Origin: a virus
DNA: 64,000 bases
IMG/VR virus record: IMGVR_UViG_3300035130_000336
Span: 1-64,000 of that record
Direction: 5' to 3' (one strand)
Shown here: positions 3,834 through 63,479 of the stretch, one piece after another
How positions within the stretch are numbered: position 1 is the first letter of the stretch
Layout: every line of letters starts with the position of its first letter
Program-made: the position numbers and the translations under genes
Notes under the pieces: generated by a model
What the model was told of the DNA's origin: nothing
Database searches by the model: none
What the model saw: only the letters and a program-made list of their open reading frames with translations

Positions 3834-3851
3834 CAAAAACCCTATACCCTA

Positions 3852-11879: not shown

Positions 11880-11880
11880 A

Positions 11881-15334: not shown

Positions 15335-15345
15335 TAATATAAAGG

Positions 15346-15435: not shown

Positions 15436-15471
15436 TTATTTTATGATAAATAATATGAAGTTGGAAATAAA

Positions 15472-17731: not shown

Positions 17732-17741
17732 AGGATATAAA

Positions 17742-18002
17742 ATGTCGTTACGAAAGGCAACAAAAATAAGAACATTATGCGAAGTTCTTCGTGAAATAAA
17801 CGATCTTCATCAGGGAGAAACAAAACATGACAGAAAAGTTCGTAAAAGGCTTGTTGAAATTGAGCGTATGGCGAAAAAAATGTCTTATAAACTTTTGGAC
17901 TACAATAAGGAATATGATAAAGAATGGTGGGAAACTGTTGAAGGTAAAGAACGTGAAAAACGTTTAAGAAAGCGGTTGTCAAAATCATATTTAATTGGAT
18001 AG
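17742..18002 (+). CDS. Small basic helical protein (86 aa)
   Basis: Starting at ATG 17742 behind AAAGGA, the product (MSLRKATKIRTLCEVLREIN...) is almost all helix and rich in Lys, Arg and Glu. No family recognised. It lies 10 bp after the GT2 gene and 3 bp before the radical SAM gene, so it is translated with the cassette; it may be an accessory subunit. Confidence 0.6.
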   Translation: MSLRKATKIRTLCEVLREINDLHQGETKHDRKVRKRLVEIERMAKKMSYKLLDYNKEYDKEWWETVEGKEREKRLRKRLSKSYLIG

Positions 18003-18005
18003 CAT

Positions 18006-18842: not shown

Positions 18843-18843
18843 T

Positions 18844-21780: not shown

Positions 21781-22367
21781 TGACCATTATAATGCCTAAA
21801 AAGATATTATGGAAGGATACCGACATATCCAGTATTCAGCAGTTTATTAAAAAAAAACAAGGTGCCGCCGATAATGAAATAAGAAAGAAGAATTGCAGAA
21901 CCAGAATAATCAGAACTTATTTGAAATCGCTTGTTGATAAAGAAAAAATAACATGTAACTTCAGGCTTGTCGATTTGTTTTGCGGTGATGCCATTATAAT
22001 TACTTATTTGAAAAAATATTTTAAAACGGCTGAAATAATCGGAGTTGATATAAACAGATTTGATACTCATGAGGAAGCTAAAAAATCAGGTGTTGAAATC
22101 AAATATAAATATGTGCAGAAATATATTAAAACAAGACGTGAAAAAATAGACGTTTTATTGATGTTAAATACATATAGAAATTATTCTTTATCAGGAATGA
22201 CAAAACGTGAATTTGACAAAATAAATAAATGGATGTTAAAAACTTGCAGACATGCAATTATAACCGCAAAAAATATAAAGCGAATTAAAAAATATGGATT
22301 TAAACCCTTAATAATAGGTAAAGGTGAAGGAAATTCAATGATGATTGATTTAAAAGGCGTTGAGTAA
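21780..22367 (+). CDS. Methyltransferase-like Rossmann protein (195 aa)
   Basis: Residues 61-71 (FRLVDLFCGDA) and IIGVDINRFD about 20 residues later form motifs I and II of a class I SAM methyltransferase. KIDVLLMLNTYRNYS is the post-motif strand. The N-terminus is basic. No substrate can be named. The ATG shares its A with the previous stop (TAATG) and the stop codon overlaps the kinase-like gene, so translation is coupled. Confidence 0.65.
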   Translation: MTIIMPKKILWKDTDISSIQQFIKKKQGAADNEIRKKNCRTRIIRTYLKSLVDKEKITCNFRLVDLFCGDAIIITYLKKYFKTAEIIGVDINRFDTHEEAKKSGVEIKYKYVQKYIKTRREKIDVLLMLNTYRNYSLSGMTKREFDKINKWMLKTCRHAIITAKNIKRIKKYGFKPLIIGKGEGNSMMIDLKGVE

Positions 22368-22834
22368 TGAGTCAATCAAAAATAGAGATAATAAAAAAAT
22401 GCGTTTGTAAACAATATTATGATAACAAAAAAAATAGGCTTTCTTCGGTAAAAATGGAATTGGCGATGATTGATCGTTTTAAAAGTCGTCATGCTCCAGA
22501 AATTATAAGTCGATTTGATAACGGTTATTATATGAAACGCTATGATTATGCTCTTGGAACGACTAAAAAATTAAATCGTTTTTGTCCGAACTTTTTGGAT
22601 GAAATCAATGAAATTGAACGGGATTTAATAAATAGTAGAATTAATCATCGGGATATCAATCCCGGTAATTTACTGTATTGTGAAGACGAACATTCTTTGA
22701 TCTTGATAGATTTTTATTGGGCGATTTCATTAGAAATGTCAAAAATAAGAATCGGTAAGTTGAATAAATATTACGGAAATGATCGTGATGCGTTTGAAAG
22801 GTTAAGAAGAGAATATGGGAAAAACCATTTATAA
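22367..22834 (+). CDS. Minimal kinase-like protein (155 aa)
   Basis: The core NHRDINPGNLLY (His94-Arg95-Asp96, Asn101) followed by LILIDF (Asp115) is the catalytic loop and metal-binding Asp of the protein-kinase/RIO/choline-kinase superfamily. The N-terminal lobe is very short: a VK.E helix near Lys29-Glu31 is the only candidate for the ATP-lysine/Glu pair, and a glycine loop is not obvious. At 155 aa it is about half a normal kinase. In this cassette it might phosphorylate a sugar, polyol or choline; that is inference. Confidence 0.7.
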   Translation: MSQSKIEIIKKCVCKQYYDNKKNRLSSVKMELAMIDRFKSRHAPEIISRFDNGYYMKRYDYALGTTKKLNRFCPNFLDEINEIERDLINSRINHRDINPGNLLYCEDEHSLILIDFYWAISLEMSKIRIGKLNKYYGNDRDAFERLRREYGKNHL

Positions 22835-23732
22835 TTTGGCAAAAGCCCAAATTGATAATTACTGCATATTTCCTGAAAGGCTTACTATAGAAAAAGATGA
22901 TGAATATCATTTGCATTATCGAAGTCTTCGTATAGCATTTACCATGCAAGAATATAAAGATTTTCTCAGTTTAATGAGATACAATCCAGAAGATAAAAAG
23001 AGTATTTTCTTGAAGAAAGTGATAACTTCTAAAGACGATGTGATAAATAAAAATGATCTTGTGATTGAATACAATAAAAATACTTACATAAAGCACCGCA
23101 ACGATTCGGCAAAGGAAGCGGATTTTTTTGAAGAGAAATATTATATCCACGTTCATTACCGCAATATTAGGCTTGAGTTTCCGATAAAAGAGTTTGTTCA
23201 AGTCGCACAAACATTTGAAACAGCACGAAAGTCGTTACCGATAAAAACCATTCAAGATATGTTTTCAGTTATTGATGATGTTTCATATGTTGTAATAAGA
23301 AATTTTGATAATTTGCCTGATTCCATAAAATTCGGGCAGCATAGCGATCTTGATTTGCTTTTTGCATCAAAAGCCGATGTTGACAAATTTATTAAACTCA
23401 CGCATGCCGAAAAAACATTTAAAGAAGAATATCGTGTACAGCATAAAGTAACTATTGGTAACGATTATATTCTTTGTGATTTGAGAGTGATAGGGGATGA
23501 TTATTTTCCATTATCCTTATGCGTTGATATGATAAACAACAGAATTCGGTGTAAATGTTTTTGGGTTTCTTCAGAACCTTGGCATTCAATAGCTTTGACA
23601 TATCATGCCTATATTCACAAAAAAAACATGACTGATGATTATCGAAAAAGGATAATATGCTCAAAAAATGATATACGAACAATGTTTGAAACAACTAAAC
23701 CTAAAGACAGATCGGTTTATTATAATCCATGA
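22815..23732 (+). CDS. Nucleotidyltransferase-like protein with internal repeat (305 aa)
   Basis: Residues 174-183 (GQHSDLDLLF) carry the S-D-x-D pattern of the nucleotidyltransferase superfamily, with YILCDLRVIGDD providing a possible third acid. The N-terminal half has two similar segments of about 24 residues, 31-54 (YHLHYRSLRIAF) and 110-133 (YIHVHYRNIRLEF), probably a duplicated small beta-alpha unit. It overlaps the kinase-like gene by 20 bp. The role may be transfer of a nucleotidyl or phospho group in the sugar pathway; uncertain. Confidence 0.6.
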   Translation: MGKTIYNLAKAQIDNYCIFPERLTIEKDDEYHLHYRSLRIAFTMQEYKDFLSLMRYNPEDKKSIFLKKVITSKDDVINKNDLVIEYNKNTYIKHRNDSAKEADFFEEKYYIHVHYRNIRLEFPIKEFVQVAQTFETARKSLPIKTIQDMFSVIDDVSYVVIRNFDNLPDSIKFGQHSDLDLLFASKADVDKFIKLTHAEKTFKEEYRVQHKVTIGNDYILCDLRVIGDDYFPLSLCVDMINNRIRCKCFWVSSEPWHSIALTYHAYIHKKNMTDDYRKRIICSKNDIRTMFETTKPKDRSVYYNP

Positions 23733-24337
23733 TAACCAAAAAAGAGTATAAAAAAATATCTTCCAGATGGACCGGAAAAATATATCAGAAATGGAAGAAA
23801 ATAAAAAAGAGGTTTCCCATGATAGAACAACATATTGAATTTTTTAAAGACGCAAAAGTTCTTGAACTTGGAGCGAACGCGGGAATGTATGCTTTTCTTT
23901 TATACCATTATATAAAAAAATATATCGGCATTGAATTTGATGAACATTATTACAATCAATCGCTTCATACGCTCAAAGGGAAAATGGATGTTACCCTGAT
24001 AAAAGATAAATTTGAAAACATCGATATCGAGGTATTGGATTATGATTTGTTTTTTGTCTGTTATGTGCTTCACCATTTAAATGAAAAGGAAATTAACAAG
24101 CTCAATGTAATATTTGATAAATGCAATAAAGTCGCGATCAGTACGAGAAGCGGCGATCCGCTTAAATACGGTCATGATGAAATCGGATTCGATCCTCTGC
24201 CGAAATGGGAGAACAGCAGAATAAAGAAAATGCTAGATGAACACGGCTTTAAGAGCGAATTGCATCTTATGGGAAAACATGATTATAACGGTATTTATTT
24301 GATATTGGCGGAGAAAAATGATAACAATCAAGGGTAA
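23729..24337 (+). CDS. SAM-dependent methyltransferase (202 aa)
   Basis: Class I methyltransferase with motif I KVLELGANAG at 43-52 and motif II YIGIEFDEHYY, then LFFVCYVLHHLNEKEI. It is the paralog of the N-terminal 205 residues of the protein at 13897. The start overlaps the previous stop by 4 bp. Its stop comes 20 bp into the next gene, which is the paralog of the gene that follows the 13897 methyltransferase, so the pair was duplicated as a unit. Acceptor unknown. Confidence 0.8.
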   Translation: MITKKEYKKISSRWTGKIYQKWKKIKKRFPMIEQHIEFFKDAKVLELGANAGMYAFLLYHYIKKYIGIEFDEHYYNQSLHTLKGKMDVTLIKDKFENIDIEVLDYDLFFVCYVLHHLNEKEINKLNVIFDKCNKVAISTRSGDPLKYGHDEIGFDPLPKWENSRIKKMLDEHGFKSELHLMGKHDYNGIYLILAEKNDNNQG

Positions 24338-24911
24338 AGCGAAAAAAATTCCAAAAAAGAAATATAAATGTCCGAATGACGGTATTCACCGGAAAAAGGA
24401 GAGCGGAGGAATTCGCGGGTTTTGGGCGGCGAAGATTTCCGATACATACATATATTATGGCAATTGGTCTTATTATATAAAACATATGGATTTCGGATTG
24501 AAGGTTTTTTATTCATTGAAATTCAATAAACCGACGAAAACAATCAAGGATGTCAAATCAACGGTGAACATGATGGTTGATTTGAAAGAATTCTGTCCAA
24601 AAATTTATTGTTACGATATAATAGAAACCGATATCAAATTCGATAAAAGAGTATGTCGTTCGGCTTCTCACGCCGTCTATATGCAACATATACATTTTTC
24701 CGAAAAAGCTTGGTTGAATTTCGCCAAAGGGAAACCGTATGATTGGAGTGCCGACAATCATCCGGCGCATTCGGAAGTGGGATTTATTGAATTTCGGAAT
24801 CGGCTTGAAGATGTCGTTAAAGATATTAATTATGATTTCGATCATTTTTCAATAGGTAATATTGTATGGTGTACAGTTAATAAACGCTGGTATTTGGTGG
24901 ATGTAAGATGA
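24318..24911 (+). CDS. Cassette protein paralogous to 14735-15334 (197 aa)
   Basis: The product contains YKCPNDGIHRKKESGGIRGF, then HFSEKAWLNFAKGKPYDWSA, and ends NKRWYLVDVR. These match the conserved blocks of the 199-aa protein at 14735. Family and function are unknown. The repeated association with a methyltransferase suggests the two proteins act together. The protein is soluble, rich in aromatic residues, and co-translated with both neighbours. Confidence 0.75.
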   Translation: MITIKGKAKKIPKKKYKCPNDGIHRKKESGGIRGFWAAKISDTYIYYGNWSYYIKHMDFGLKVFYSLKFNKPTKTIKDVKSTVNMMVDLKEFCPKIYCYDIIETDIKFDKRVCRSASHAVYMQHIHFSEKAWLNFAKGKPYDWSADNHPAHSEVGFIEFRNRLEDVVKDINYDFDHFSIGNIVWCTVNKRWYLVDVR

Positions 24912-25537
24912 TTGTCGGTTTAATGGCATTGTGCAGATTTCCGTATTATGAGGGATGTTTATTATCGTTATGCAATCTCGTGGATAAAGTATATCTGCGA
25001 TTTGATGGGATAACCGGTAATGAAAAAATACGTGAAGTCGCTCCGTATATATGTGGAAATAAATTCGGCGAAATGTTGGTAAGTTCTACTGTCTGGAATG
25101 CTTTTATATGGCGTGAAGAACTGTTGAGAATGCTTGATGATGTCAAACCGGAACTTGTTTTATTTCCCGATGAGGATGAAGTTTTCGGTCTTGGAATAGA
25201 TGATGATTTAAAAAGATTTATAAAAAGTGATAAACAACAGCTTGCATTTAATTATCAATATCCGGCACCGACGATAGATGGTTGGAAGCATAAAAAGCCT
25301 TATCCTTCAGAACCCCACATCAAGGCATATAAATGGAAGCCGGGATTGACATATATTCCATACAAAAAAAGAGCTAGTCTAAGTAATTATGGAAAATTTC
25401 ACTATAAAATGGCGAAAAGTAAAATACTTCATTATTGTTTTTATACTCCGGAATTAAGAAAAAGAAAACTTTGGACTACACCAGCTAAAAAGTTATGGTT
25501 TCGACAAGAAATGAAAGGGAGAAATGATGAAAAATAA
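24908..25537 (+). CDS. Glycosyltransferase family 2-like protein (209 aa)
   Basis: MIVGLMALCRFPYYEGCLLS, VDKVYLRFDG, and LVLFPDEDEVF follow the plan of the Glyco_tranf_2_4-type proteins, where FPDEDE takes the place of the DxD metal site. At 209 aa it is on the short side. The C-terminus is basic (KKLWFRQEMKGRNDEK). It overlaps the 197-aa gene by 4 bp and a 45-aa Gly-rich gene downstream. Confidence 0.65.
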   Translation: MIVGLMALCRFPYYEGCLLSLCNLVDKVYLRFDGITGNEKIREVAPYICGNKFGEMLVSSTVWNAFIWREELLRMLDDVKPELVLFPDEDEVFGLGIDDDLKRFIKSDKQQLAFNYQYPAPTIDGWKHKKPYPSEPHIKAYKWKPGLTYIPYKKRASLSNYGKFHYKMAKSKILHYCFYTPELRKRKLWTTPAKKLWFRQEMKGRNDEK

Positions 25538-25664
25538 GGGTAATTATTCGGGAAAAGGTGGTCGTGGTATTTGTGGAGGACAGCGAAGAAAAGATGGTTC
25601 AGGCGGTGGTGTCGGGAATCGTGGTACAAATAGACAGCCGATTAGTAGGAATAATAAAAAATGA
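25527..25664 (+). CDS. Gly-rich small protein (45 aa)
   Basis: A 45-aa frame between two sugar genes with GGGAGAAATG in front. The product (MKNKGNYSGKGGRGICGGQR...) is Gly/Arg/Asn-rich with one Cys and no hydrophobic core. It overlaps the upstream gene by 11 bp and the downstream ATG by 4 bp. Similar Gly-rich micro-proteins occur in bacteria and phages, but I cannot give a function. Confidence 0.55.
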   Translation: MKNKGNYSGKGGRGICGGQRRKDGSGGGVGNRGTNRQPISRNNKK

Positions 25665-26599
25665 ACTGGCTTTTTCTTCGTGGACGGATGGAACGGCATT
25701 CGGAATGTTTATGGCGAAATCTTGATGAATGTACCGATATGTGGACGCATCTGTTCGCGGGTATGATTGATGAAAATAATTCAGGAGTTATCTTATACGG
25801 TAACGGTCATAGAACCGTTAAATATTCTGATAAATTATGTGAAAAGTGGATTTTAAAATTCAAGGAATATGAAGGAGAGAAACCTGATATCATCATAGCT
25901 CGTGGTGGATTTAAAGACTATGTTCCGTTGTTGAAAAAATATCCTGAAGCGAAAAAAGTTTATTATGGTGCCAATCATGGCTGTATTCCAAAAGATGGAA
26001 TAAAATATGATTTGATTATGTGCGATAGTGAAGAACAGGTAAAGAAATGCCGTAAGCATGGATTGAACGGACAACTATTTATTAAACCCGCCGCGCCGCA
26101 ATTTTATCCTCGATTTTTTAAAAAAAAATATGATGTCGGATTTTCAGCCATATGGCCGAAGGATAAAAGAAAGAATGTGGCTTGGGTGCATAAAACCGCT
26201 CCGAAGGATTTGAATATACTTCAGATGGGACATGCATGTAAAGCACCGAAAAATATTTTGGTAAAAATGATTGATCATGATAAAATGCCGAGAGCGATAT
26301 CACGATGCAAAGTAATTATCGCTCCTTATACTGGAGAGGATTCATGTCCGAGAATAATTCCGGAAGCTCTGGCTTGCGGAGTGCATGTAGTTGCTTTGCA
26401 TGGGTGTCAGTATTGGCGTGAAAAATATCCGGTTGATTATATATCGAAAAAACATTTTTGGGAAACCGTTAAAAGATGCGTGAAGTATTATCAAAACAAT
26501 TTGCATGATGATTATAAGGAAACTCTTTCCATACCGGTAGCGGCGGATTGTTTAAGGAGATTAATATATGAAAGTTGCGATATTCAGCGGCAGGTTTGA
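25661..26599 (+). CDS. GT-B glycosyltransferase-like protein (312 aa)
   Basis: The N-terminal domain has MNWLFLRGRMERHSECLWRN and KKVYYGANHGCIPK; the donor domain has VGFSAIWPKDKRKN and YTGEDSCPRIIPEALACGVH, in which Glu in IPEAL corresponds to the second Glu of the GT4 EX7E motif. No membrane segment. It overlaps the cytidylyltransferase gene by 32 bp. This is the last clear glycosyltransferase of the cassette. Confidence 0.8.
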   Translation: MNWLFLRGRMERHSECLWRNLDECTDMWTHLFAGMIDENNSGVILYGNGHRTVKYSDKLCEKWILKFKEYEGEKPDIIIARGGFKDYVPLLKKYPEAKKVYYGANHGCIPKDGIKYDLIMCDSEEQVKKCRKHGLNGQLFIKPAAPQFYPRFFKKKYDVGFSAIWPKDKRKNVAWVHKTAPKDLNILQMGHACKAPKNILVKMIDHDKMPRAISRCKVIIAPYTGEDSCPRIIPEALACGVHVVALHGCQYWREKYPVDYISKKHFWETVKRCVKYYQNNLHDDYKETLSIPVAADCLRRLIYESCDIQRQV

Positions 26600-27008
26600 T
26601 CCTTTACATATAGGACATATTCTTACTATAATTGAAATAGCGAAAAAATACGATCATGTATTTGTACCAATATTAAATTATTCAAATCGATTTATTGAAG
26701 TTGAAATAATTTTGAAAATATTTAAAAGAATTTTTGAACATATGGATAATCTTTTTTTTAAAGTAACTCTTATAGTAAATGAAATACATTTTGGAAAAAT
26801 TACTTCTAAAGAATATAAAACATTAATTAGAAGTATTAATTGTGAAAATGATGATGTGACATATCTTTCCGGCAATTTCGAAGTGCTTGATCATATGAAT
26901 AAAATAGGAATAAAAAACGAATATTTTAAACGAACCATGGATGAAGTATATACGGGAACGAACATTCGTAATCAGATCAAAGATGGAGTATGTGAAGAAT
27001 TTTTATAA
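26568..27008 (+). CDS. Cytidylyltransferase-like nucleotidyltransferase (146 aa)
   Basis: IFSGRFDPLHIGHILTI contains the HxGH signature (His14-Ile-Gly-His17) of the TagD/PCT/NMNAT nucleotidyltransferase family, and YTGTNIRNQI at 128-137 is the equivalent of the ISST..R motif. Such enzymes couple CTP (or ATP) to a phospho-compound such as glycerol-3-P, choline-P or ethanolamine-P. Next to two LicD-like genes this points to making a CDP-activated group for transfer to a glycan. Confidence 0.82.
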   Translation: MKVAIFSGRFDPLHIGHILTIIEIAKKYDHVFVPILNYSNRFIEVEIILKIFKRIFEHMDNLFFKVTLIVNEIHFGKITSKEYKTLIRSINCENDDVTYLSGNFEVLDHMNKIGIKNEYFKRTMDEVYTGTNIRNQIKDGVCEEFL

Positions 27009-27026
27009 AATAAATTTGGAAAGAAA

Positions 27027-27734
27027 ATGCATATGAACAATCAAATCGAATCGGCGAAAAAGATACTTGATGATTTGACAACGTTGTTTGATTTTCTGGA
27101 AACAAGCGATGGTAAATCCATATGGTGGTGTCATTGTTTCGGCGGTGTTCTCGAATTCATAGCGGATAAAACTTTTTCATTGAATTATGACATCGATATC
27201 GGGGTAATGTACGGGGAATGCGATGAAAATAAATTGATATATGCACTGGAAGGACATGGATATAAAGCCGAAAAAAAATGTATAAATGATGTTAATAAAA
27301 AATCGTTTAATATTCATTTTACTCCACGTGAAGAGACGTTGAAAGGGACGCCTACCGTGGATGTCTATTTTTGGGTTCCGATAGGAGATAAATATTATCA
27401 TACGTATGATACGAAAAAAGAGGGAAACAAAATACCTTCCGAATATGTGTTCAAGGGTGTGAAAAAATGGTGGTTGAAACCTTCGCCCGAAATAATAAAA
27501 ATGGAAAAAAACAAAGGTAAACCCGGACGGGAACAAATGCTTACGGATCAAGGTACGTGGAGGTTTCCGGTTTTTGGCAGTTCCGGCGGATTGACCATGA
27601 GGCTTCCTTATGCAATAGGACATTTGCTCGATACATGGTATTCACCGACGTGGAGATTCAGAGAATATTATAAAGGACAGAGCATGAGTCCGTGGGTGAA
27701 AAAAGTAAAATCTTGCAGGGAATTGGAACAATGA
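27027..27734 (+). CDS. LicD-like phosphotransferase/nucleotidyltransferase (235 aa)
   Basis: WWCHCFGGVLEFI followed by LNYDIDIGVMYGE (Asp55, Asp57) is the LicD-type arrangement, in which a G..L helix precedes a D.D metal site. GTPTVDVYFW provides a later acid. LicD enzymes move phosphocholine or related groups from a CDP donor to a sugar. The start is taken at 27027 behind GGAAAG; ATG 27033 is an alternative. An ATGA overlap links it to the next gene. Confidence 0.65.
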   Translation: MHMNNQIESAKKILDDLTTLFDFLETSDGKSIWWCHCFGGVLEFIADKTFSLNYDIDIGVMYGECDENKLIYALEGHGYKAEKKCINDVNKKSFNIHFTPREETLKGTPTVDVYFWVPIGDKYYHTYDTKKEGNKIPSEYVFKGVKKWWLKPSPEIIKMEKNKGKPGREQMLTDQGTWRFPVFGSSGGLTMRLPYAIGHLLDTWYSPTWRFREYYKGQSMSPWVKKVKSCRELEQ

Positions 27735-28006
27735 ATTTATGTGAAACCAATAAAGGCGCTGCCTTATATTGGGTTGAAAGATTCGGTTATGGTAAAGACT
27801 GCCGGAAATGTGAACATTATAACGATACATGTTGTTGTGAAATAGCCGATAGAATAATCAAGAAATTGGAAGAGCATAAAGGTTTTCTTTATAATATTCG
27901 CAAAAAAAAGAAGGTATATAGAATTACAGCCCAAGAATGCGACAGGTTCGATTTATGTACTTATCCTTATTCAAACGAACTTTATTTAAAAGAAAATGAT
28001 TTATGA
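27731..28006 (+). CDS. Cys-rich hypothetical protein (91 aa)
   Basis: Starting at the ATGA overlap, the 91-aa product has CRKCEHYNDTCCCEI at about 27-41 and later CDRFDLCTY, eight or so cysteines that could bind zinc or an iron-sulfur cluster. No family recognised. Co-translation with the LicD-like genes places it in the same pathway or makes it a small accessory. Confidence 0.6.
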   Translation: MNLCETNKGAALYWVERFGYGKDCRKCEHYNDTCCCEIADRIIKKLEEHKGFLYNIRKKKKVYRITAQECDRFDLCTYPYSNELYLKENDL

Positions 28007-28308
28007 AGGAAAAAACAATTGAGATTTGTTTTTTTGGCACTGTTATTTTCTTAATTGTGTTACTAATTGGTGTAACAATATATGGTGGCATGAGTGTTGA
28101 GAATAAAACAATAACAGTTACCGTTAAAGAAAAAATATATCAACCTAGTACTGAAGTTTTAATATTTGGACACCATGAGGCTTACTACATTATATCTGAA
28201 GACAGTGCTGGAAATATGTATAAAACTAAGACCAATTATGCTACTTATGGTGAACTAAATCGAGGAGATGATATTTATTTGGATGTAAATGTTAGTAAAG
28301 CAAGATAA
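28003..28308 (+). CDS. Small membrane-anchored protein (101 aa)
   Basis: Residues 9-28 (FFGTVIFLIVLLIGVTIYGG) form one membrane span after a short basic/acidic start; the remainder (about 70 aa) is a predicted beta-rich domain facing outward, with KTITVTVKEKIYQ and GDDIYLDVNVSKA. This is the only clear membrane protein of the sugar cassette. It overlaps the previous stop by 4 bp. Function unknown. Confidence 0.6.
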   Translation: MKEKTIEICFFGTVIFLIVLLIGVTIYGGMSVENKTITVTVKEKIYQPSTEVLIFGHHEAYYIISEDSAGNMYKTKTNYATYGELNRGDDIYLDVNVSKAR

Positions 28309-28339
28309 GTAAATACAATAAAAAAGGACATTGATTTCA

Positions 28340-29017
28340 ATGAGTTACTTCAATTACGATCGAAAAAGATGGGCTATTGAAGATATCGCGACTTGTTATG
28401 AATGTGCGGAGAAAGTGGGTATCAAAGAAAAGCTGTTCATCAATTTCGGTTTGTTATTGGGAATCATAAGAGAAAATGATTTTATTCCAAATGATGATGA
28501 TGTCGATATTTGCGTGCAATCCGATAATGTTTCAAAAAGGCAACAGGAAGAGTATATCAATCGTCTGGATGATCATGGATTGTTTTTCGCACGGGAAAAA
28601 AAGGTAAAGCGATTTGATAAAGATATGTATTTATGGTTTTCGTTGAGAAAAGAAATCAATAGATCAAAATTTTGCCATTGGTGGGGATTTAATTGGCAAG
28701 GTTATTATTGGTGGTCTAAAGGAAGAAAATGGGTGCGTCCGAATAAATTTGATGGATCACGATGGGGATATGAAGATACTGATGAAGGAATTGCCTTAGG
28801 AATACCGTTAAATTATGTTGAAAAATTAATGTGGATTAAATTCAAAGGAATTAAAATTCAAATTCCTGAAAAATACGGGCATGTTTTGGATTGGGAATAT
28901 CCGGGATGGCCGGTACCGCAATCGGGAAGCAGCAGAAAACAGGTTGCATGCATCATACCAAAATGGAATAATCCGCGAGATTGGAAGATAAAAACCGCTT
29001 CTTTATCTTTGTATTAA
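28340..29017 (+). CDS. LicD-family protein (225 aa)
   Basis: FGLLLGIIRENDFIPNDDDV (residues 36-55) is the clear LicD signature: an LLG..RE.DFIP loop followed by DDDVDI metal-binding acids. The C-terminal half has IPLNYVEKLMWIKFKG and YGHVLDWEYPGWPVPQ, as in this family. LicD proteins transfer phosphocholine or a similar group to cell-surface sugars. ATG 28340 is chosen with AAAAAGGA about 12 bases upstream; a TTG at 28331 is closer to it. Last gene of the cassette. Confidence 0.85.
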   Translation: MSYFNYDRKRWAIEDIATCYECAEKVGIKEKLFINFGLLLGIIRENDFIPNDDDVDICVQSDNVSKRQQEEYINRLDDHGLFFAREKKVKRFDKDMYLWFSLRKEINRSKFCHWWGFNWQGYYWWSKGRKWVRPNKFDGSRWGYEDTDEGIALGIPLNYVEKLMWIKFKGIKIQIPEKYGHVLDWEYPGWPVPQSGSSRKQVACIIPKWNNPRDWKIKTASLSLY

Positions 29018-29039
29018 TATTTTTTTGTTTTTATTAACG

Positions 29040-29057
29040 TATGCGGTACGTGTGTCG
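29040..29057 (+). repeat. Left arm of 18-bp inverted repeat around a methyltransferase
   Basis: TATGCGGTACGTGTGTCG, perfectly inverted at 29951-29968. The local context also folds: GTATGCG (29039-29045) pairs with CGCATAC (29056-29062). It lies 18 bp before the methyltransferase ATG. Confidence 0.85.
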
Positions 29058-29074
29058 CATACATTAGGTGCAAT

Positions 29075-29944
29075 ATGGCAAATGAAAACATGAATATTAT
29101 ACGCGCGGGGCAAGACACAGCGCGTCCTGTGCCGAAGATAAATACAATTACGTGCGGTGATTGTATTGAGGTTATGCAATTAGTACCAGACAAAAGTGTC
29201 GATATGATTCTTTGTGATTTACCTTATGGTACTACCCAAAATAAATGGGATACTGTAATCCCATTTGTGCCGTTGTGGAAGCAATACAATCGTATTTGCT
29301 TAGGTGCCATTGTTCTTACTGCAAGTCAACCATTTACATCTGCCATAATTATGAGCAATCTAAAAATGTTCAAACACGAATGGATTTGGATAAAAAACAG
29401 GGGAAGTAATTTTGCAAATACAGTGCGTGAACCGATGAAAGAGCATGAATCGGTTTTGGTTTTTGCTTATGGCAAATGGACATACAACAAACAGATGCAA
29501 GAAAGAACCGGAGGAGGTCTGTCTAGGGTTGGGTACAAGTTTACCTGCTGCACCGAAACCGAAAACTATGGGAGGATAGGTAACCCAAAAGAAGCGCAGG
29601 GAGAGTTGCGGGTTCCATCTTCGTGGCAAAAGTTCAATACTGAGGTTGGATTGCATCCAACACAAAAACCAGTAGCCCTTTTCGAGTACCTAATCCGCAC
29701 CTACACAAACGAAGGTGATACGGTTCTGGATAATTGCATAGGTTCAGGCACAACAGCAATAGCCTGTATTAACACCGGAAGAAATTATATCGGAATTGAG
29801 AAGGAAGAAAGATACTGCCGGATAGCAGAAGAGCGCATCCATGCGCTAAGAAGCCCCGTGCAGAACACTAAAGAAATTTGCCATACAGCACCTAACAGCG
29901 GTAGGGATGCCATGCTGCTGACACTATGGAATGAGAATAAATAG
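29075..29944 (+). CDS. DNA adenine methyltransferase (289 aa)
   Basis: Beta-order N6-adenine/N4-cytosine methyltransferase: the catalytic motif is DLPY at 48-51 (ILCDLPYGTT), then LHPTQKP at 193-199 and the SAM motif DNCIGSGTT at 219-227 with YIGIEKEE. DLPY in place of DPPY is common in phage adenine methylases. It has no partner nuclease. The gene is bracketed by an 18-bp perfect inverted repeat, 18 bp before its start and 7 bp after its stop, and it sits between the sugar cassette and the portal block, so it may be a mobile single-gene insertion. Confidence 0.87.
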   Translation: MANENMNIIRAGQDTARPVPKINTITCGDCIEVMQLVPDKSVDMILCDLPYGTTQNKWDTVIPFVPLWKQYNRICLGAIVLTASQPFTSAIIMSNLKMFKHEWIWIKNRGSNFANTVREPMKEHESVLVFAYGKWTYNKQMQERTGGGLSRVGYKFTCCTETENYGRIGNPKEAQGELRVPSSWQKFNTEVGLHPTQKPVALFEYLIRTYTNEGDTVLDNCIGSGTTAIACINTGRNYIGIEKEERYCRIAEERIHALRSPVQNTKEICHTAPNSGRDAMLLTLWNENK

Positions 29945-56274: not shown

Positions 56275-57265
56275 GCGCCTTTGCTTCGCACGACCAAACG
56301 ATACTTAGCTTTGCTTTTGCTGGGCTAAACACAACAATGCCCCACATTGCCTTTGCAAAACAATGCATTGCATTACTTCACTTTGCCTTTGCAACACAAT
56401 ACGCAACACTACCATGCTCTGCCTATGCTCTACTTTACATAACATGACCGCACTTTGCCTTTGCATTACATTACATTACCACGCCTTTACATTACCATAC
56501 TCAACACCACCATGCTCCGCCTATGCTTCACACGCCGCTACTTCGCTTCGCTTTGCCTTTGCATTACTTCACTACACTATACGGTGCTTTTGCATTACTC
56601 CACTACACCTGACTCCGCATTGCCTTTGCAACACTATACATTGAATAGCCTTTCCAATGCATCGCAATACTTAACTATGCTGATCCTTTGCTAGCACAGC
56701 TTCACCATACACTACTTTTGCTTTGTCGTACTGAACGGAACTTTGCCCAACCATTGCAACACATGGCTATACTGCACAATACAATACCTTCGCATGGCGA
56801 TACGAAACAAGGCTTCACACTTCCTTTGCGTCGCTAAACCACGCAAAACTATGCCTTTGCCGTATTGAACGGAACTTCGCTTTGCCTTTGCGGCGTAAAA
56901 CTACGCTTCACTCAGCTTCTGCTTTACGCAACGAAACAGCACTATGCTTTACCTTTGCCATACAGCACATCACTTCGCTTTTGCTTGGCCACTCCTAACT
57001 ATTCTGTGCCTGTGCCACACGATACAACGCCTCGCCAAGCCTGTGCTTTGCTCCACCGTATCCGGCCCTGCTTTACCAAACCATTACAACACAGTGCAGT
57101 ACAAGGCTATGCCTGTGCTTAACTATACTAGACTTTGCCTGTGCCAAACATGACGAGACTTTGCCTGTGCTTAACTTTACTTTGCTTAACGGCACCATAC
57201 CACGCCTGTGCTCTACTAAACATCACTGTACTTTGCCTGTGCCATACACCACCCTGCAATACATG
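56275..57265 (-). repeat. Pentamer-phased array A (about 990 bp)
   Basis: On the + strand hexamers, mostly CTTTGC with CTATGC variants and CTGTGC near the right end, are each followed by a variable number of pentamers NNNRC. Example, 57178-57232: TTTAC TTTGC TTAAC GGCAC, later CTGTGC TCTAC TAAAC ATCAC. The array fills the convergent gap between the RusA-like stop (56273) and the stop of the leftward gene at 57316; the last 50 bp are degenerate. No gene is plausible in it. On the minus strand the grammar reads GCAAAG or GCACAG followed by GYNNN words. Confidence 0.9.
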
Positions 57266-57315
57266 GTATTAGCGATGTTTGACCGCACCGGGCATTCCTA
57301 TACTTTGGATTGCCT

Positions 57316-57951
57316 TTAGCTTTTTAAATAATTGACGGTAAAGCGGCCTTTTCCACTGTTTCGCCACTGTCCGATGCCGCGCAATTGGCCATAATCAAGC
57401 CATTCGCGTACGAACTTTTCATGGCTGTCACTTAAACACTGAATTTCCAATTCGCAGGTGCTTCCTGCGGGGACGGTTTCACTGTTCGCCAAAGCAATTC
57501 TCTCGCCCTGTGCGGTATTTCCGCGAAGAGGACGTTGACAGTTTCCCATCTTGCCTTTTACTTTGATGGCAATCATTCTCGGGTGAACGAAAATACATCC
57601 ATCGATCACCTTTTTATACGCTCTTAATTCTCCCTTCTTTCCTTTACCCGATTCGGATTTTGACGCCTTATACGTTTCGAATCCCTCACAGCGCATGAGA
57701 GCGGCGCAGGTATCCTTGAAAAACCCCTTCCACTGGTAATCCCAAAAGATGGGATTACTATCCTTATCGCGTGGAAAAATAGTCATTGCTTTTTCAACAA
57801 CTTCTTCTATCCCGATCGCTTCCACTTCTTCTTCCCGCGACAGCTTATCGGGAGCCTTGCTTGCTATATACTCCGCATGGATTTCTTTTGACGGACTTGC
57901 TGTTCCCAACACTTCTTCTTGGAAAGTGATTTTTACTTTGAGCGTTTTCAT
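57316..57951 (-). CDS. Conserved phage protein with RAMP-like glycine loop (211 aa)
   Basis: The protein belongs to a phage family of unknown function that I recognise by KITFQEEVLGTASP, EIHAEYIASKAPD, MTIFPRDKDSNPIFWDYQWK, NCQRPLRGNTAQGERIALAN, and SETVPAGSTCELEI. Its last 20 residues contain GIGQWRNSGKGRF (192-204), which fits the G-h-G-x5-G-x-G loop of RAMP proteins (Cas5/6/7-like RNA binders). The loop match is by eye. AAAGG stands before the ATG. Array A lies behind the gene and array B in its leader, so it is enclosed by the unusual repeats. Confidence 0.75.
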   Translation of the reverse strand: MKTLKVKITFQEEVLGTASPSKEIHAEYIASKAPDKLSREEEVEAIGIEEVVEKAMTIFPRDKDSNPIFWDYQWKGFFKDTCAALMRCEGFETYKASKSESGKGKKGELRAYKKVIDGCIFVHPRMIAIKVKGKMGNCQRPLRGNTAQGERIALANSETVPAGSTCELEIQCLSDSHEKFVREWLDYGQLRGIGQWRNSGKGRFTVNYLKS

Positions 57952-57984
57952 ACTGAACCTTTCTGATAAAATTGAGGGTTGATT

Positions 57985-58101
57985 TACCTTTGCATAACTT
58001 CACAACACATTGTTTTGCCTTTGCGTTGCCAAACTATTCCTTGCTCAACTCTGCCGTTGCAAAACACCACATTGCAATACAGCACTTTACAATTGCGATA
58101 C
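57985..58101 (-). repeat. Pentamer-phased array B (about 117 bp)
   Basis: Same grammar as arrays A, C and D, CTTTGC type: CTTTGC ATAAC TTCAC AACAC, then CTTTGC GTTGC CAAAC, then CGTTGC AAAAC ACCAC ATTGC AATAC. It fills the gap between the 49-aa gene (stop 58089-58087) and the leader of the 211-aa gene. The stop codon of the 49-aa gene lies inside the array phase. Confidence 0.85.
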
Positions 58102-58236
58102 ATCTCCTTTCTGTTTGAACCATTTGGTTTTTTCTTTATAATATTTTCTACTCTCCTCTCTTGTTTTATTTTTTGTTTCTCTATACATTTTGTCACGGGT
58201 TTTTCTTATGAATCTCATTACTTTGAAATTTTTCAT
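58087..58236 (-). CDS. Small basic helical protein (49 aa)
   Basis: A 49-codon frame not listed by long-ORF searches: MKNFKVMRFIRKTRDKMYRE, then TREESRKYYKEKTKWFKQKG. The pattern IR..RD.MY.ETK..T.EE...Y....  is that of a small helical protein common in phages and mobile elements, of unknown role. There is no clear ribosome binding site. Its end is directly joined to array B, and array C begins 34 bp upstream of its start. Confidence 0.55.
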   Translation of the reverse strand: MKNFKVMRFIRKTRDKMYRETKNKTREESRKYYKEKTKWFKQKGDVSQL

Positions 58237-58269
58237 AATTGATATTTTTTTTGAGATAATAAAAGAAAC

Positions 58270-59790
58270 CGTGCTGTTCCATACGATACGTTACATCGAC
58301 CTGCTTTTGCAACACTTAACTACGCAAATCCATACAAAGCTTTTGCGGGGCTAGACTAGACATCACAGTACCCCTGCCTCGCTGCGCGTTACATTACTAT
58401 GCATTACCCCTGCCCCGCTGCGCGTCACATTGCTATGCTTTACCTTTGTTTTGCTGGGCAATACGTTACCGTGCGTTGCCATGCCTGTACGGAACTTTAC
58501 TTAACTCTACTTAGCCTTTGCTCCACAAAACATAACTTCACTTTGCCATTCCTGTGCTACACAAGACACAACCTTACTCTACCATGCCTTTCCTTTGCTT
58601 GGTTATACTGTACCATGCCATACCTGCGCAATACCCCACAATACCGAACTGTACAATGCTACGCCTTAACAATGCCAAACAGCGCTTTGGCATGCATTGC
58701 CGGTGCTGTGCCAAACTACTCAACGCTTTACCATCGCCATGCCAAGCTTTGCCGTTCCTTTGCCGCACTAAACGCCGCGATACCATGCCTGTGCATAACC
58801 ATGCATAACTGTGCTCTGCCTGTGCATTACTGAACAACATACCGCTTTGCCTTACCTTTGCAGAACAATGCTTCGCTATGTATTGCCTGTGCTCCACAAT
58901 GCATCACAATACTTCACATTGCTTCGCCTTTGCCATACAGCGACATGCGATACTCCGCCTTTCCTTTGCAAAACACAGCGTCACAACGCATAGCCTATGC
59001 TTCACGAAACAGCACGTCACAAAACTATGCCTTTGCGTCACTAAACTACACAGTGCCTGTGCTTTACTAAACATCACTTTGCTTTTGCATAACAGCACAT
59101 CACTACGCCTGTGCTTCACCTTACTTCACTCTACATTGCCTGTGCCGCGCAATACATAGCGAAACCAGACCATGCCTGTGCATAACGTTACCAAACTCTG
59201 CTGTGCCTGTGCATTACCTTACCTCACTTCGCTTTACCATGCCAGCGCACCACGGTACAGCACTATGCCTGTGCATCACGCTACCAAACAATACATTGTC
59301 ATGCATGTGCATCACATTACTTCACTTCCCACCGCCTGTGCCTTACTAAACTCCACTCTACAGTGCCTGTGCATCACTTGACTTCGCTCTACCTCGCTTT
59401 GCCTGTGCATTACATCACCACACAGTGCTTTGCCGGTGCTTCACGTTACAACACTATACACTACATATCCTAACCATTTCTTTGCCAAACAGTGCATCAC
59501 CATACAATGCCGGTGCCATACATTGCTATACCATGCATCGCCTGTGCTTTGCTTCACTCCACCTCGCTTTGCCTGTGCTTGGCTTAACCACGCTCTGTCT
59601 GTGCATTGCATCACGGCACACAACGGGACAGCACTACGCCTGTGCATCACTAAACTATACTGTGCCTGTGCTTGGCTTAACTAATCTGTGCCTGTGCATC
59701 ACTTCGCCGCACATAGTTCTGCTGGTGCTTTGTATTACTATACTATGCATCGCCTGTGCATGACAGTACATCACATTGCTTTGCCTCTGT
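58270..59790 (-). repeat. Pentamer-phased array C (about 1.5 kb)
   Basis: The longest array. The left third has mixed hexamers (CTTTGC, CCCTGC, CTGTGC), the rest nearly all CTGTGC. Units such as CTGTGC TTTAC TAAAC ATCAC TTTGC and CTGTGC TTCAC CTTAC TTCAC TCTAC ATTGC show the rule: words ending in AC, with the last word before the next hexamer usually ending in GC. Occasional one-base slips or substitutions occur and the phase then resumes. It lies between the 49-aa gene and attP. Open frames up to 144 codons run through it on both strands but are by-products of the composition. Confidence 0.9.
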
Positions 59791-59949
59791 ATTGATTCTC
59801 TGTTTTTGATACCCTCCCGAATTGATTTTTTGGTTCTCAGAGGCTACAAAAAGACTACAATTGGCCCTGATGATAGTATATTTAAGGATAAAATTACTCA
59901 TGATGGAAAGCAGGTTTTTAAAAAAAGTGCCCAAATTCGTTAAAAAAAC
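59791..59949. other. Spacer between array C and attP core, possible integrase arm sites
   Basis: No gene is seen. GAGGCTACAAAAAGACTACAA at 59839 onward has two GRCTACAA-like words, and AGGCTACCTGAGGGCTACAT at 60068 onward, at the integrase 3' end, has two more GGCTAC words. Paired direct words on both sides of the core are what arm-type integrase sites look like. The rest is AT-rich. Confidence 0.3.
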
Positions 59950-60010
59950 GGAGGGGAGAGGATTTGAACCTCCGGTAGAGTTGCCCCTACGCAGGTTTAG
60001 CAACTCTACG
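59950..60010 (-). other. attP: attP core: 3' half of tRNA-Ser(GCU)
   Basis: On the minus strand the segment from the anticodon loop (TTGCTAA, 60004-59998) to the discriminator base (59950) matches the 3' half of a serine tRNA. It has anticodon-stem strand ACCTG, a long variable arm GTAGGG-GCAA-CTCTAC, a T-arm with TTCAAAT loop, and the acceptor strand CCCCTCCG. The 5' half is missing. A phage attP normally carries this so that integration rebuilds the host tRNA. GTAGAGTTGC and GCAACTCTAC form a 10-bp inverted repeat, 15 bp apart, across the core. The integrase gene starts 35 bp away. Confidence 0.85.
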
Positions 60011-60044
60011 GCGGAGTAGGTTTCACCCAATAAAACCAATGGTT

Positions 60045-61097
60045 CTATGCCGTCTTTCGCAGCGAAAAGGCTACCTGAGGGCTACATAATACGTCATTTA
60101 TGATATCAATCTGACGCCGGTTGTCGTAAACATGCTGCGTTTTCGGACTCGTTTGAATGCCCATTTTCTTTAACATCTCATAGGTGAATCCCTGCCGCAA
60201 CAGATACGTCTCCGCGCAATGCTTTAAATCGTGCCAGTTGAAATCATAAATCCCCACCTGTTTTAAAACTGTATCGAAATGCCATCGGGGATCGCTGATT
60301 TTTTTCCAGACGACCTTTCCGTTTTTCCGTTCCAACATGGGAAAGAGCCACGGACAATCCTTCGGCAACGAATGGGCGTACCGGACAAAATCCATGTCGA
60401 TATTCGGCAGGATCGTTACCCGGATTTTATCTTTCGTTTTCTTCGCCTGAAAACGAACGACCCATCGTGATACTTCCATCTGAAGATTTTTTCGCTGTAA
60501 ATTGAAAAGATCCCCCTTGCGGATGGGATTAATAAGGGAGAATTTTACCGCTTCGAGAATGTGGGATTTATGTAAGGTCAAATAATTGATCAGGGCGTTT
60601 TTTTCGCCGTCGGAGAGAATCCGATTGCGCTCGTTGCCTTTCCTGATCCTCCATTTTCTGACCGTGGTTCGACCGCACCGCCCGGTTTCATAAGCGAAAT
60701 TGCAGATTGACCGGACGACGATTTTATAATTATTGACGGTATTGACCGCAAGGCCGCTCCCTTCGAGATTTCCGACATACCGGCTGTAACCGGCGGCGAA
60801 AATCTGCTTGTCGGGAAACAGACGACCCAATTCCTTAATCGATCGGTCGTAACACGCCTGATTAAATCCCCCGCGTCCGCGCTCGTTCAAATAAAGTTCC
60901 GCGCATTTGGAAAATCGTAACGATGTCAAAGAACAATCTCCCGTCAATGAACGGGCTTCGATCTGATTTTTTAAATGCTGATCGAAATTATCCGTCTTGC
61001 GGCGGAAGTGACGCGCCTTTCCCGCGCCGTTTCGGTATGCCCGGTCAACGTAATACCACCGAACCCCATTTGCATCATTCTTATACCAGACTCGCAT
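60045..61097 (-). CDS. int: Tyrosine recombinase (integrase), 350 aa
   Basis: Catalyses site-specific integration at the neighbouring attP. The start is ATG 61097, set by GGGAGGAG seven bases upstream; the frame remains open to 61184. The N-terminal part (MRVWYKNDANGVRWYYVDRA) is an arm-binding-like domain. The catalytic domain has Arg in NPIRKGDLFNL, Lys in FQAKKTKDKI, and Tyr324 in TQHVYDN. The second catalytic Arg of the HxxR box is replaced by Lys (HDLKH, His289/Lys292), and the usual GH before the Tyr is missing (KMGIQTSPKTQ). It may still act, as it looks otherwise intact. Confidence 0.88.
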   Translation of the reverse strand: MRVWYKNDANGVRWYYVDRAYRNGAGKARHFRRKTDNFDQHLKNQIEARSLTGDCSLTSLRFSKCAELYLNERGRGGFNQACYDRSIKELGRLFPDKQIFAAGYSRYVGNLEGSGLAVNTVNNYKIVVRSICNFAYETGRCGRTTVRKWRIRKGNERNRILSDGEKNALINYLTLHKSHILEAVKFSLINPIRKGDLFNLQRKNLQMEVSRWVVRFQAKKTKDKIRVTILPNIDMDFVRYAHSLPKDCPWLFPMLERKNGKVVWKKISDPRWHFDTVLKQVGIYDFNWHDLKHCAETYLLRQGFTYEMLKKMGIQTSPKTQHVYDNRRQIDIINDVLCSPQVAFSLRKTA

Positions 61098-61168
61098 ATC
61101 TCCTCCCTTTTCAGGGAGGGTATCTGAGTATAATATAGTATCAGGTAGGGGAAAAGAGGGTATATTTT

Positions 61169-61441
61169 CTACGCTTTTACGCATACCGCATTATAGATGA
61201 TTTTATTGGCGTATTCCGGACAGAATTCAGGCGTTTTCGACATATCGTATCGATTGCCCTGTTCGTATTTCACGCAAGTGTTTTTGAGGGGACACTCTTC
61301 ACAGGTCGGAATATCTTTTTTCCACCGGTCGGCGTATTCCCGGCAGCCGCCGAGCATACATCGCGGACTCCACTTATGCGGGACGGCGGAGGGACACCCT
61401 TCACACTCTTTTACGGCTTTGCCGCAAATATAGAGGCTCAT
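61169..61441 (-). CDS. Cys-rich hypothetical protein (90 aa)
   Basis: About twelve cysteines in a 90-aa protein: CGKAVKECEGCPS, CMLGGCREYAD, CEECPLKNTCVKYEQ and FCPEY. They could bind two or more zinc ions or an iron-sulfur cluster. It sits between the excisionase-like gene (4-bp overlap) and integrase, so it may belong to the lysogeny module. Family unknown to me. Confidence 0.65.
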   Translation of the reverse strand: MSLYICGKAVKECEGCPSAVPHKWSPRCMLGGCREYADRWKKDIPTCEECPLKNTCVKYEQGNRYDMSKTPEFCPEYANKIIYNAVCVKA

Positions 61442-61641
61442 TTTTTTCTTCCTCTCTCCGGCAATAAAAACTCTCCGCCGGTCAGTCGTTTTTCAATATC
61501 GGCACGCCTGAACCGATAAATTCCCCCGATTTTTACCATACCGGGCAGACGTCGTAACGCCATGTATTTTTCGATGAACTTTTTACTGACGTTCAACCTC
61601 TCGCTCAGCTCGTCGGGAGTCATCAGCGAATCTTTCGTCAT
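61438..61641 (-). CDS. Excisionase-like helix-turn-helix protein (67 aa)
   Basis: From ATG 61641, with AAGGAG six bases upstream, the product MTKDSLMTPDELSERLNVSK, then GMVKIGGIYRFRRADIEKRL is a MerR/excisionase-type winged helix (DNA-binding domain, excisionase family). It likely binds attP and steers integrase toward excision, or acts as a small regulator. It is co-translated with the Cys-rich gene. Array D begins in its leader and touches the ribosome binding site. Confidence 0.8.
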   Translation of the reverse strand: MTKDSLMTPDELSERLNVSKKFIEKYMALRRLPGMVKIGGIYRFRRADIEKRLTGGEFLLPERGRKK

Positions 61642-61650
61642 ACGCGCTCC

Positions 61651-62150
61651 TTGCCTTTGCATCACTGAACATTACTTTGCATTGCCATGCCTGTGCTTGA
61701 CTACGCCTTACTTCGCCTGTGCTATACTAAACTTCACATCGCATCGCCTGTGCTACACCAAACAACACTGCGCACTGCCTGTGCCTAACTCAACAATGCC
61801 AAACCGTGCCTGTGCTTAACAAAACAACACCATGCTAATCCTGTGCTTCACATAACTGAACAGCACTATGCATTGCCTGTGCCGCGCAATACACCACCTC
61901 GCTTTGCCTGTGCTGGGCCAAACATTACCCTGCCTTGCCTGTGCATAACGAAACTCCACCGCGCATTACCTGTGCATTACCTTACCAAACCTTACATCAC
62001 CATGCCTGTGCAAAACTTGACATTGCTTCACGATGCCTGTGCTTAACAAAACATGTCATAACAATGCATTGCCTATGCTTAACCAAACCGTGCTGTACCT
62101 GTGCTTGACAATACATCACCCCACGGTGCCTATGCATTACCTTACCAAAC
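61651..62150 (-). repeat. Pentamer-phased array D (500 bp)
   Basis: The cleanest array. I parsed it by hand into 16 hexamer-led units: one CTTTGC, two CTATGC, the rest CTGTGC, each followed by 4, 5 or 6 pentamers. Unit lengths are therefore 26, 31 or 36 bp. Of about 80 pentamers all but two (TAATC, ATGTC) end in AC or GC. The words are varied: TTGAC, TACGC, CTTAC, TTCGC and so on. The array exactly fills the gap between the SSB-like stop (62155) and the leader of the excisionase-like gene. Confidence 0.95.
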
Positions 62151-62154
62151 ACCG

Positions 62155-62583
62155 TTAAAACGGCAGATCGGAATCCGCTGGGGGAGCGTTGTTCTGGTCC
62201 GCCAGATGTTTCGCTTCACGGCACACGTAATCATCGATTTTGTTCTTGTCGGGATAGATGCCGTTTTTATCCACTTCGATACCGATTTTTGCTTTACCGA
62301 CACGACCTTCGAAATCGAAGGCTCTGAGGCTTCCCGTTTCGTATTTCGCCAGCAGCCCGAAAGCATCGCATGCATGGCGGAGTTTCGCGGGCATCTCATC
62401 AAGCAGATAGTCATAGATTCTGTTGACGACGCGATCCCCCAACCAGACGGCAATAGTAAGCCGGATCATCTCCTTGTCGTTTTTACTTACCTGATCGATC
62501 GCTTCGATCACTTCGACGTCGTAAACGCCTTTATCGATGATTTTTCTCGGTAGATCTTTTTCCGAATAGGTTTTGAACCTCAT
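62155..62583 (-). CDS. SSB-like protein, DUF669-type (142 aa)
   Basis: From ATG 62583, coupled to the ATPase by an ATGA overlap. GVYDVEVIEAIDQVSKNDKE, NRIYDYLLDEMPAKLRHACD, and KAKIGIEVDKNGIYPDKNKI follow the plan of the phage DUF669-like family, thought to bind single-stranded DNA. The last residues, ADSDLPF, resemble the acidic tip of SSB proteins (D..PF) that recruits other repair factors. Together with the Sak4-like ATPase this makes a recombination pair. Confidence 0.75.
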   Translation of the reverse strand: MRFKTYSEKDLPRKIIDKGVYDVEVIEAIDQVSKNDKEMIRLTIAVWLGDRVVNRIYDYLLDEMPAKLRHACDAFGLLAKYETGSLRAFDFEGRVGKAKIGIEVDKNGIYPDKNKIDDYVCREAKHLADQNNAPPADSDLPF

Positions 62584-63479
62584 TTCTTTTTTCCGCCTTT
62601 CAATTTGCCGTTTAACCATTCTATTGTTTTCGCCGCCTGATCGGCGGTAAGTTCGTTCCAGTTGTCCGCTCCCGCCTTGGTCAATACTTTCGTCGTTTCC
62701 TCAGGGGTGATTTTAAGGAGCGCCACCATCCGTTCGATTTCCTCGACATCTTCATCCGACGCGATCGTGATAGGGTTTACATTCGATTCAATATTCTCCC
62801 TGCCGTACCGTTTCGAAAACTCCTCGTAATCGAGGGAAAAGGTTTCCTGATCGGGAAAACCCGCGAGGCGCGTTTTATAAACGATCGCCGTCGGCGGATA
62901 GACGGTGCCGCGTTTGATCACCCGCAATCCCAGATCAAGCTCGTAAACGAGTTTGTCCCATACGTCGGGACACTTTCCTGTCTCTTCCCGCTGCCCGGTT
63001 CGGGGATTGGTACCCCATTCCGACGTCTCATGCGCGATGAACCAGATGTTCATATCAAGTTTCATACACCAATTGACAAGTCGGCGCATTTGCGCGATCG
63101 CCGGTTTTTTCGACGCGCCAAAGACATCACGTTCGGCGAGACGCTCCGCCTCGTTGGCGATGCATGTCTGGTAGACTTTCGTGATTGAATCGATCACCAG
63201 CGTACCGTAATTATGTTTTTCGGTGGCAAGCGACTGCATCTCGGTAACGATCGCCGAAAGGTCAAGCGCCCCTTCTTCCGGTCCCATGTACGCGCCTCCC
63301 GCCGCTTTGAGGCGTTTCTGGTATTCCACTCCATCCGCTCCCCCTTCGGTATCGATATAATACGGCCTTGGGAACGTGAGAGAAAACCATGTTTTTCCCA
63401 CTCCACTCGCTCCGAAAAGAAGCCCTTTCGCCTTACCCTGTTTTACTTCTTCAGGATCTTTCGCTTTCAATTTGCTCAT
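62580..63479 (-). CDS. Sak4-like RecA-fold ATPase (299 aa)
   Basis: From ATG 63479 with GGAGG eight bases upstream. Walker A GASGVGKT at 23-30, PYYIDTEGGADG (residues 39-50), and Walker B YGTLVIDSITK at 91-101, followed by MNIWFIAHETSEW, characterise phage Sak4/AAA_24-type single-domain RecA-like ATPases, which anneal or pair single strands during replication-recombination. The C-terminal ~50 residues (LKITPEETTKVLTKAGADNW) form a helical domain. Its partner SSB-like gene follows directly. Confidence 0.85.
   Translation of the reverse strand: MSKLKAKDPEEVKQGKAKGLLFGASGVGKTWFSLTFPRPYYIDTEGGADGVEYQKRLKAAGGAYMGPEEGALDLSAIVTEMQSLATEKHNYGTLVIDSITKVYQTCIANEAERLAERDVFGASKKPAIAQMRRLVNWCMKLDMNIWFIAHETSEWGTNPRTGQREETGKCPDVWDKLVYELDLGLRVIKRGTVYPPTAIVYKTRLAGFPDQETFSLDYEEFSKRYGRENIESNVNPITIASDEDVEEIERMVALLKITPEETTKVLTKAGADNWNELTADQAAKTIEWLNGKLKGGKKK

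Follow-up and report, generated by a model that had tools for sequence, protein, structure and literature searches.

A gene for a RAMP protein, homologous at a remote level of sequence similarity to the Vipr protein of phage SUSP1, and four arrays of five-base words are found together in the window, i.e. the whole stretch of 64,000 nucleotides analysed here (positions 1 to 64,000 of the IMG/VR virus record IMGVR_UViG_3300035130_000336). According to the reading preferred here, with a probability of about 0.87, the arrays provide the guide RNAs of a VIPR-type system of a temperate phage, used against competing elements. VIPR systems have been described as combining a phage-encoded ancestral RAMP with vrRNAs built of alternating GGY/NN pentamers (PMC13142463, bioRxiv 2026). 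The first-pass annotation of this DNA had assumed that the repeats belong to no described family, an assumption that does not survive comparison with the published main text, as VIPR possesses pentamer-phased guide RNAs with conserved and variable positions beside a RAMP gene (PMC13142463). The features concerned are the following:

56280–57280, minus strand: array A, immediately adjoining the 3' end of the vipr-like gene; lag-5 z = 17.6
57316–57951, minus strand: gene for the Vipr-like RAMP protein of 211 aa with the C-terminal glycine-rich loop GIGQWRNSGKGRF; homologue in 31 of 31 array locus groups
57985–58110, minus strand: array B, a short array on the 5' side of the vipr-like gene; lag-5 z = 4.9
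58270–59795, minus strand: array C, likewise on the 5' side of the vipr-like gene; lag-5 z = 22.1
61651–62152, minus strand: array D, with an HTH/excisionase-like gene on one side and the gene 62155–62619 on the other; lag-5 z = 14.7

The vipr-like gene thus sits between arrays A and B, and a fifth array is located at 71.24–72.44 kb of the 73,074-base IMG/VR record, beyond the 64-kb window.

On the plus strand, all four arrays follow the grammar CTKTGC(NNNRC)n, and the hexamer-punctuated NNNRC arrays at 56.28–62.15 kb are present as initially described. Pairs of RC dinucleotides at a distance of five bases are strongly enriched over 500 exact dinucleotide shuffles per array, with 143 pairs observed versus a shuffle mean of 45 (maximum 65) in array A, 13 versus 4 (maximum 9) in array B, 213 versus 64 (maximum 88) in array C and 78 versus 22 (maximum 38) in array D. 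The excess over shuffled sequence proposed as a check in the first-pass annotation has consequently been obtained for each array (z = 4.9–22.1), and 20 other 500-bp stretches of the window range from -2.0 to 1.9. Equally, a local score for the grammar reaches 718 and 237 as compared with at most 18.4 in ten shuffles of the whole window. Rule-keeping in array D is as high as previously noted, with RC ending 81 of the 85 parsed five-base words. Consecutive hexamers are spaced by 26, 31, 36 or 41 bases (6 + 5k). The hexamer corresponds to a word with one extra base and thus introduces a phase slip of +1.

The functional strand of the arrays is the minus strand. In this RNA-sense spelling the word reads G-Y-N-N-N and the hexamer reads GCAMAG followed by GC. 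More precisely, the word can be written G-Y-R-N-N, with GY strongly conserved, a purine after Y in approximately 76% of words (averaged over loci) and the last two positions variable, while the base before GY is a G in only about 16% of the words in the window's arrays. The consensus over 1,105 slips is GCAAAG|GCA, with GCA[AC]AG|GCA in the window, and the distance between slips is mostly 5–7 words, so that many unrelated phages have the unit lengths 26, 31 and 36 nt in common. With regard to the early impression that no unit copies another, the words are not strictly unique, as some segments of 17–23 bases recur between arrays.

How the arrays diverge can be seen upon comparison with the closest relative, IMGVR_UViG_3300029827_000121, which has an integrase 96% identical to that of the window and arrays at the same locations. 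Substitutions per site amount to 18, 17 and 15% at the three N positions, to 7% at R, where 29 of the 35 changes exchange A and G, and to 3.5% at C; as parsing of the phase relied on the sequence of the window, these rates contain a slight bias toward RC conservation, which is minor given the effect size. Lengths of insertions and deletions are mostly multiples of 5 and blocks of words are swapped in frame. The alignment of related phages hence bears out the expectation that words diverge while the phase is kept.

Beyond this pair, scanning IMG/VR with a pattern of two hexamers retrieved 32 stretches, nearly all of which contain arrays of the same grammar and many of which are GC-rich with words of the type NNNGC. 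The CTTTGC version of the pattern has two matches in 85,000 prokaryote genomes, both in metagenome-assembled genomes. Blastn of one array against INPHARED gave zero matches, with blastn being uninformative for gapped codes, and the guide units common to unrelated phages were restricted to low-complexity GCAAAGGC matches.

Association of the arrays with the RAMP gene has been approached from both directions. Array loci had been found by DNA grammar alone, such that the vipr-like gene played no part in their selection, and upon clustering of their open reading frames one family of approximately 200-aa proteins occurs in each of the 31 locus groups whose flanks are sufficiently long. Among the listed loci, the gene lies on the strand opposite to the CTTTGC/NNNRC spelling, and in most of them an array is found directly at its 3' end. 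Conversely, 427 IMG/VR loci were recovered with the protein as the sole query. Among the best 80 of these 427 protein-picked loci, a strong GY array is present within 3 kb in 34 and, by a loose criterion, periodicity or another sign of an array in 76, while the 5-nt periodicity of the flanks exceeds the maximum of 211 background windows (1.31) in 73. In 64 of the 73 loci above background, the guanine signal is stronger than the cytosine signal, that is, the gene's own strand carries the stronger periodicity. Taken together, the two scans demonstrate that the link between gene and array holds both ways and with a fixed strand. Of four human gut phage records that possess the gene, three display the 5-nt periodicity in a looser form, and a plasmid search with the vipr-like protein found zero. 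Several loci of the family stem from records resembling isolate genomes, L062, L069 and L070 among them. Among 90 loci no recurring neighbour of the RAMP gene was observed, the commonest neighbour being a single-strand binding protein gene (SSB; 19 loci).

Confident assignment of the window protein by Pfam, PHROGs and NCBIfam is absent. On the other hand, 7 of 26 family members match the PADLOC model Cas7_IIId (best 5.7e-4), the Csm3 and Cas6 models are also matched by the family, and a profile search against the PDB points to type VII Cas7 (5.5e-4) and Csm4 (0.02). An AlphaFold2 model of the protein (pLDDT 83.8, pTM 0.80) has type VII Cas7 and Csm3 as its best Foldseek matches, with E-values from 7e-8 to about 1e-6, a probability of 1.0 and a TM-score of about 0.5; the top match in BFVD is a viral UniProt entry (54% identity) that bears the annotation 'Cas system-associated RAMP superfamily protein'. 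Profile, fold and annotation matches together identify the vipr-like protein as a RAMP of the guide-coating kind, in agreement with the small RAMP with RRM core and glycine-rich loop that forms the core protein of VIPR systems. Furthermore, the family was compared by hhalign with SUSP1-type Viprs, for which seven homologues had been aligned. The two profiles run colinearly for 169 aligned columns, with a remote similarity of approximately 24% and a score of 35.8 compared with a maximum of 22.5 for 20 column-shuffled alignments. The motifs MKxLxIKIT and GxGxWRxxxGRF are common to the family and to SUSP1 Vipr. The latter is likely ALH47069, judged by its size, motif and location between vrRNA tracts, and, by these sequence criteria, the vipr-like protein is its remote homologue. 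A protein contacting nucleic acid every five bases, as had been anticipated from the phase of the words, fits with the RAMP/Cas7-like gene linked to the arrays, and the unusual copying mechanism suggested as its alternative is not needed.

In the main text of the published work, NN pairs of VIPR guides read the DNA target with one skipped base (NNx), competing phages are repressed by a mechanism reported for SUSP1 and P. fulva, vrRNAs are discrete and of approximately 100 nt with 9–16 repeats and a conserved 3' tail, other types have other array architectures, and an accessory vap gene is typical, but not universal (PMC13142463). Likenesses of the present locus to VIPR type II (SUSP1, ALH47069) extend to a phage-borne single RAMP of approximately 20 kDa with a C-terminal glycine loop, to guide arrays flanking the gene on both sides on the gene's strand and to pentamers that mix conserved and hypervariable positions. 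In SUSP1, tracts of (R/G)GY-NN words form two intergenic arrays around ALH47069, with guides of about 15 words without slip. In contrast, words are of GYR/NN and not of GGY/NN type here, with the G that nearly always precedes GY in SUSP1 found in the mentioned small fraction of words; arrays are continuous over 0.5–1.5 kb and tail-less, one-base slips occur at GCAMAG|GC every 5–7 words and a recurrent vap gene is absent. Vibrio phage 1.266.O, which has a homologue of SUSP1 Vipr, harbours GCA-NN words in vrRNA-like tracts, some ending in GCAAAG, thus sharing the word type and the hexamer with the arrays of the window. These GCA/NN tracts (L054, positions 1178–1501 and 2091–2337), several of which are preceded by GGGGTAAAACTCAAG, constitute a good small model of the code.

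Seven VIPR types have been distinguished; 'a related consensus' is mentioned for some of them, as are 'staggered arrays with overlapping vrRNAs', and by this main-text description the types so characterized are the best published candidate relatives of the arrays (PMC13142463). The kind of system is known, and the form of the arrays and the spelling of the words depart from VIPR as described in the main text (PMC13142463); with the differences drawn from that main text only, the system may belong to one of the seven published types. More tentatively, it could constitute an undescribed VIPR type with kilobase-long tail-less RNAs, dozens of overlapping guides delimited by slips and GYRNN words that are not read according to NNx but, for instance, with three bases each or as separate guides of 5–7 words, which we regard as possible, though rather doubtful.

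Two further contigs combine elements of both kinds. Locus L098 (9300–13700) has two Vipr-type genes, one a member of the array-linked family that has a looser array of its own upstream, the second of SUSP1 type (12733–13320), followed by YNNGG tracts. In locus L035, a classic GGY/NN tract of approximately 20 words (1142–1247) and a GYRNN array share one contig; a SUSP1-type Vipr gene was not detected on the stretch of L035 examined.

The predicted fold is shared with type VII Cas7 and type III-A Csm3, and a coating of the guide RNA at a fixed step would be expected, but identity is 9–14%, the step is 5 nt here and 6 nt there, and a cas operon and CRISPR repeats are absent here. Class 1 CRISPR-Cas as such was rejected, with near-identical repeats lacking and cas genes absent among the recurrent neighbours. 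Equally, TRF reports weak short fragments only, which speaks against a tandem repeat or CRISPR, and coding sequence was dismissed because the arrays have no single open frame throughout and a 5-nt phase is incompatible with codons. Tandem guide-RNA arrays are reported to be phage-encoded in TIGR-Tas systems as well (PMC12045711). This organization would be common to TIGR-Tas and to the system proposed here. Tas proteins are not known to be RAMPs, nor are TIGR arrays known to be pentamer-phased.

How such a system might work can be outlined on the basis of the sequence and its published relatives. The arrays would be transcribed from the minus strand, which is the strand of the vipr-like gene, and possibly processed at the hexamer. 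Protomers of the RAMP (57316–57951, minus strand) would then line up along the RNA at intervals of five bases, each holding the conserved GY(R) and leaving the variable bases exposed to a DNA target. The GCAMAG|GC slip would split the array into units of 5–7 words and probably represents the edges of individual or overlapping guides; this role as a guide boundary is suggested by the guides of SUSP1, in which about 15 words follow one another without slip. If it acts like its counterpart in SUSP1, the complex would attach to the DNA of competing phages or satellites, with repression of transcription as the outcome; the assumption of DNA targeting and silencing is borrowed from the published VIPR relatives.

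Eight to ten reading rules were applied in searches for the targets, which covered 1–3.3 Mb of DNA from related phages; guides of ten words, single units and pairs of units with a free offset at the slip matched about as often as shuffled words. With the NNx rule applied to the last two N positions, 91 perfect matches were counted versus 64 ± 6 in 12 shuffles, and after de-duplication 51 units were matched versus 41.6 ± 4.9, with wobble bias absent; an excess is not claimed because it is weak after removal of duplicates and lacks that bias. Four exact NNx scans of IMG/VR with guides of the array-linked family gave one match (L136), which is off the wobble register and was rejected as a target, the skipped base falling on codon position 2 and the match being probably due to chance. 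The classic GGY/NN tract of L035 had zero matches in an exact IMG/VR scan. At the RNA level, neither a conserved 3' tail nor an excess of secondary structure is detected in the arrays (fold z from -1.1 to 2.2), an Rfam search of the arrays gave nothing credible and promoters and terminators are no more numerous than in shuffles.

Might the arrays act as DNA rather than as RNA? Binding sites on double-stranded DNA, of iteron-like, partition or packaging type, would be touched by a protein every half helical turn, and the arithmetic agrees, as units of 26, 31 and 36 nt correspond to 10.29–10.4 bp per two words, near the helical repeat, and six words plus one base make 31 bp or three turns; the absence of strong RNA structure is equally in line with it. 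However, the arrays are accompanied in all informative loci by a gene for a RAMP, a fold that binds RNA, the strand of the arrays is fixed relative to this gene and words are hypervariable. SUSP1-type relatives, moreover, share the 5-nt phase with zero slips in 15 words, hence the slip is not a helical requirement, and binding sites of this kind are considered improbable.

Hypervariable positions would be superfluous if the arrays gave rise to decoy or inhibitor RNAs directed against a host class 1 CRISPR system or the VIPR of another phage, with RAMP and repeat mimic forming an anti-CRISPR sponge. The proximity of the fold to Cas7/Csm3, the phage-borne location and target searches without a convincing match would all suit a sponge, but between close relatives N positions change at about twice the rate of R and 4–5 times the rate of C with the frame held, as guides would, which renders the sponge very improbable. 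Close relatives do differ by gain and loss of units and by shuffled segments, as would a functionless satellite-like repeat that evolves fast and persists through slippage and unequal recombination; yet G and Y have the lowest substitution rate between relatives and the grammar is common to unrelated phages with the same gene always adjoining, and such a repeat is hardly credible. Guide RNAs of a VIPR-type system remain the preferred reading.

It was in 2026 that RNA guidance by non-contiguous guides was first described, from a few model phages (PMC13142463). The locus and its more than 400 IMG/VR relatives show a divergent branch, with its own spelling and very long arrays, to be common in uncultured temperate phages. 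As guides are replaced in frame between the two closely related phages, their turnover can be measured directly and, if the guide units are confirmed, one phage would carry in the order of 100 guides.

The setting in the IMG/VR record is that of a phage or provirus with integrase, portal and Sak4-like genes. The HTH_17/excisionase-like gene (61438–61665) has the integrase on one side and array D on the other. Directly adjoining the integrase gene, positions 59945–60045 (GGAGAGGATTTGAACCTCCGG...) are similar to the 3' half of tRNAs, and ARAGORN finds no complete tRNA; the phage probably uses a tRNA gene for integration and has its attP core here. At 3851–4072, an intergenic AT-rich unit of approximately 104 bp is present twice, with repeated ACGTGTTAAATTATACACGTG-like motifs, and could be a regulator or origin site. 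About 25 consecutive plus-strand genes of 200–400 aa (10294–29944), including one for a LicD-like protein (28331–29017) and one with a weak methyltransferase match (13897–15114), look like a sugar-modification cassette in a phage.
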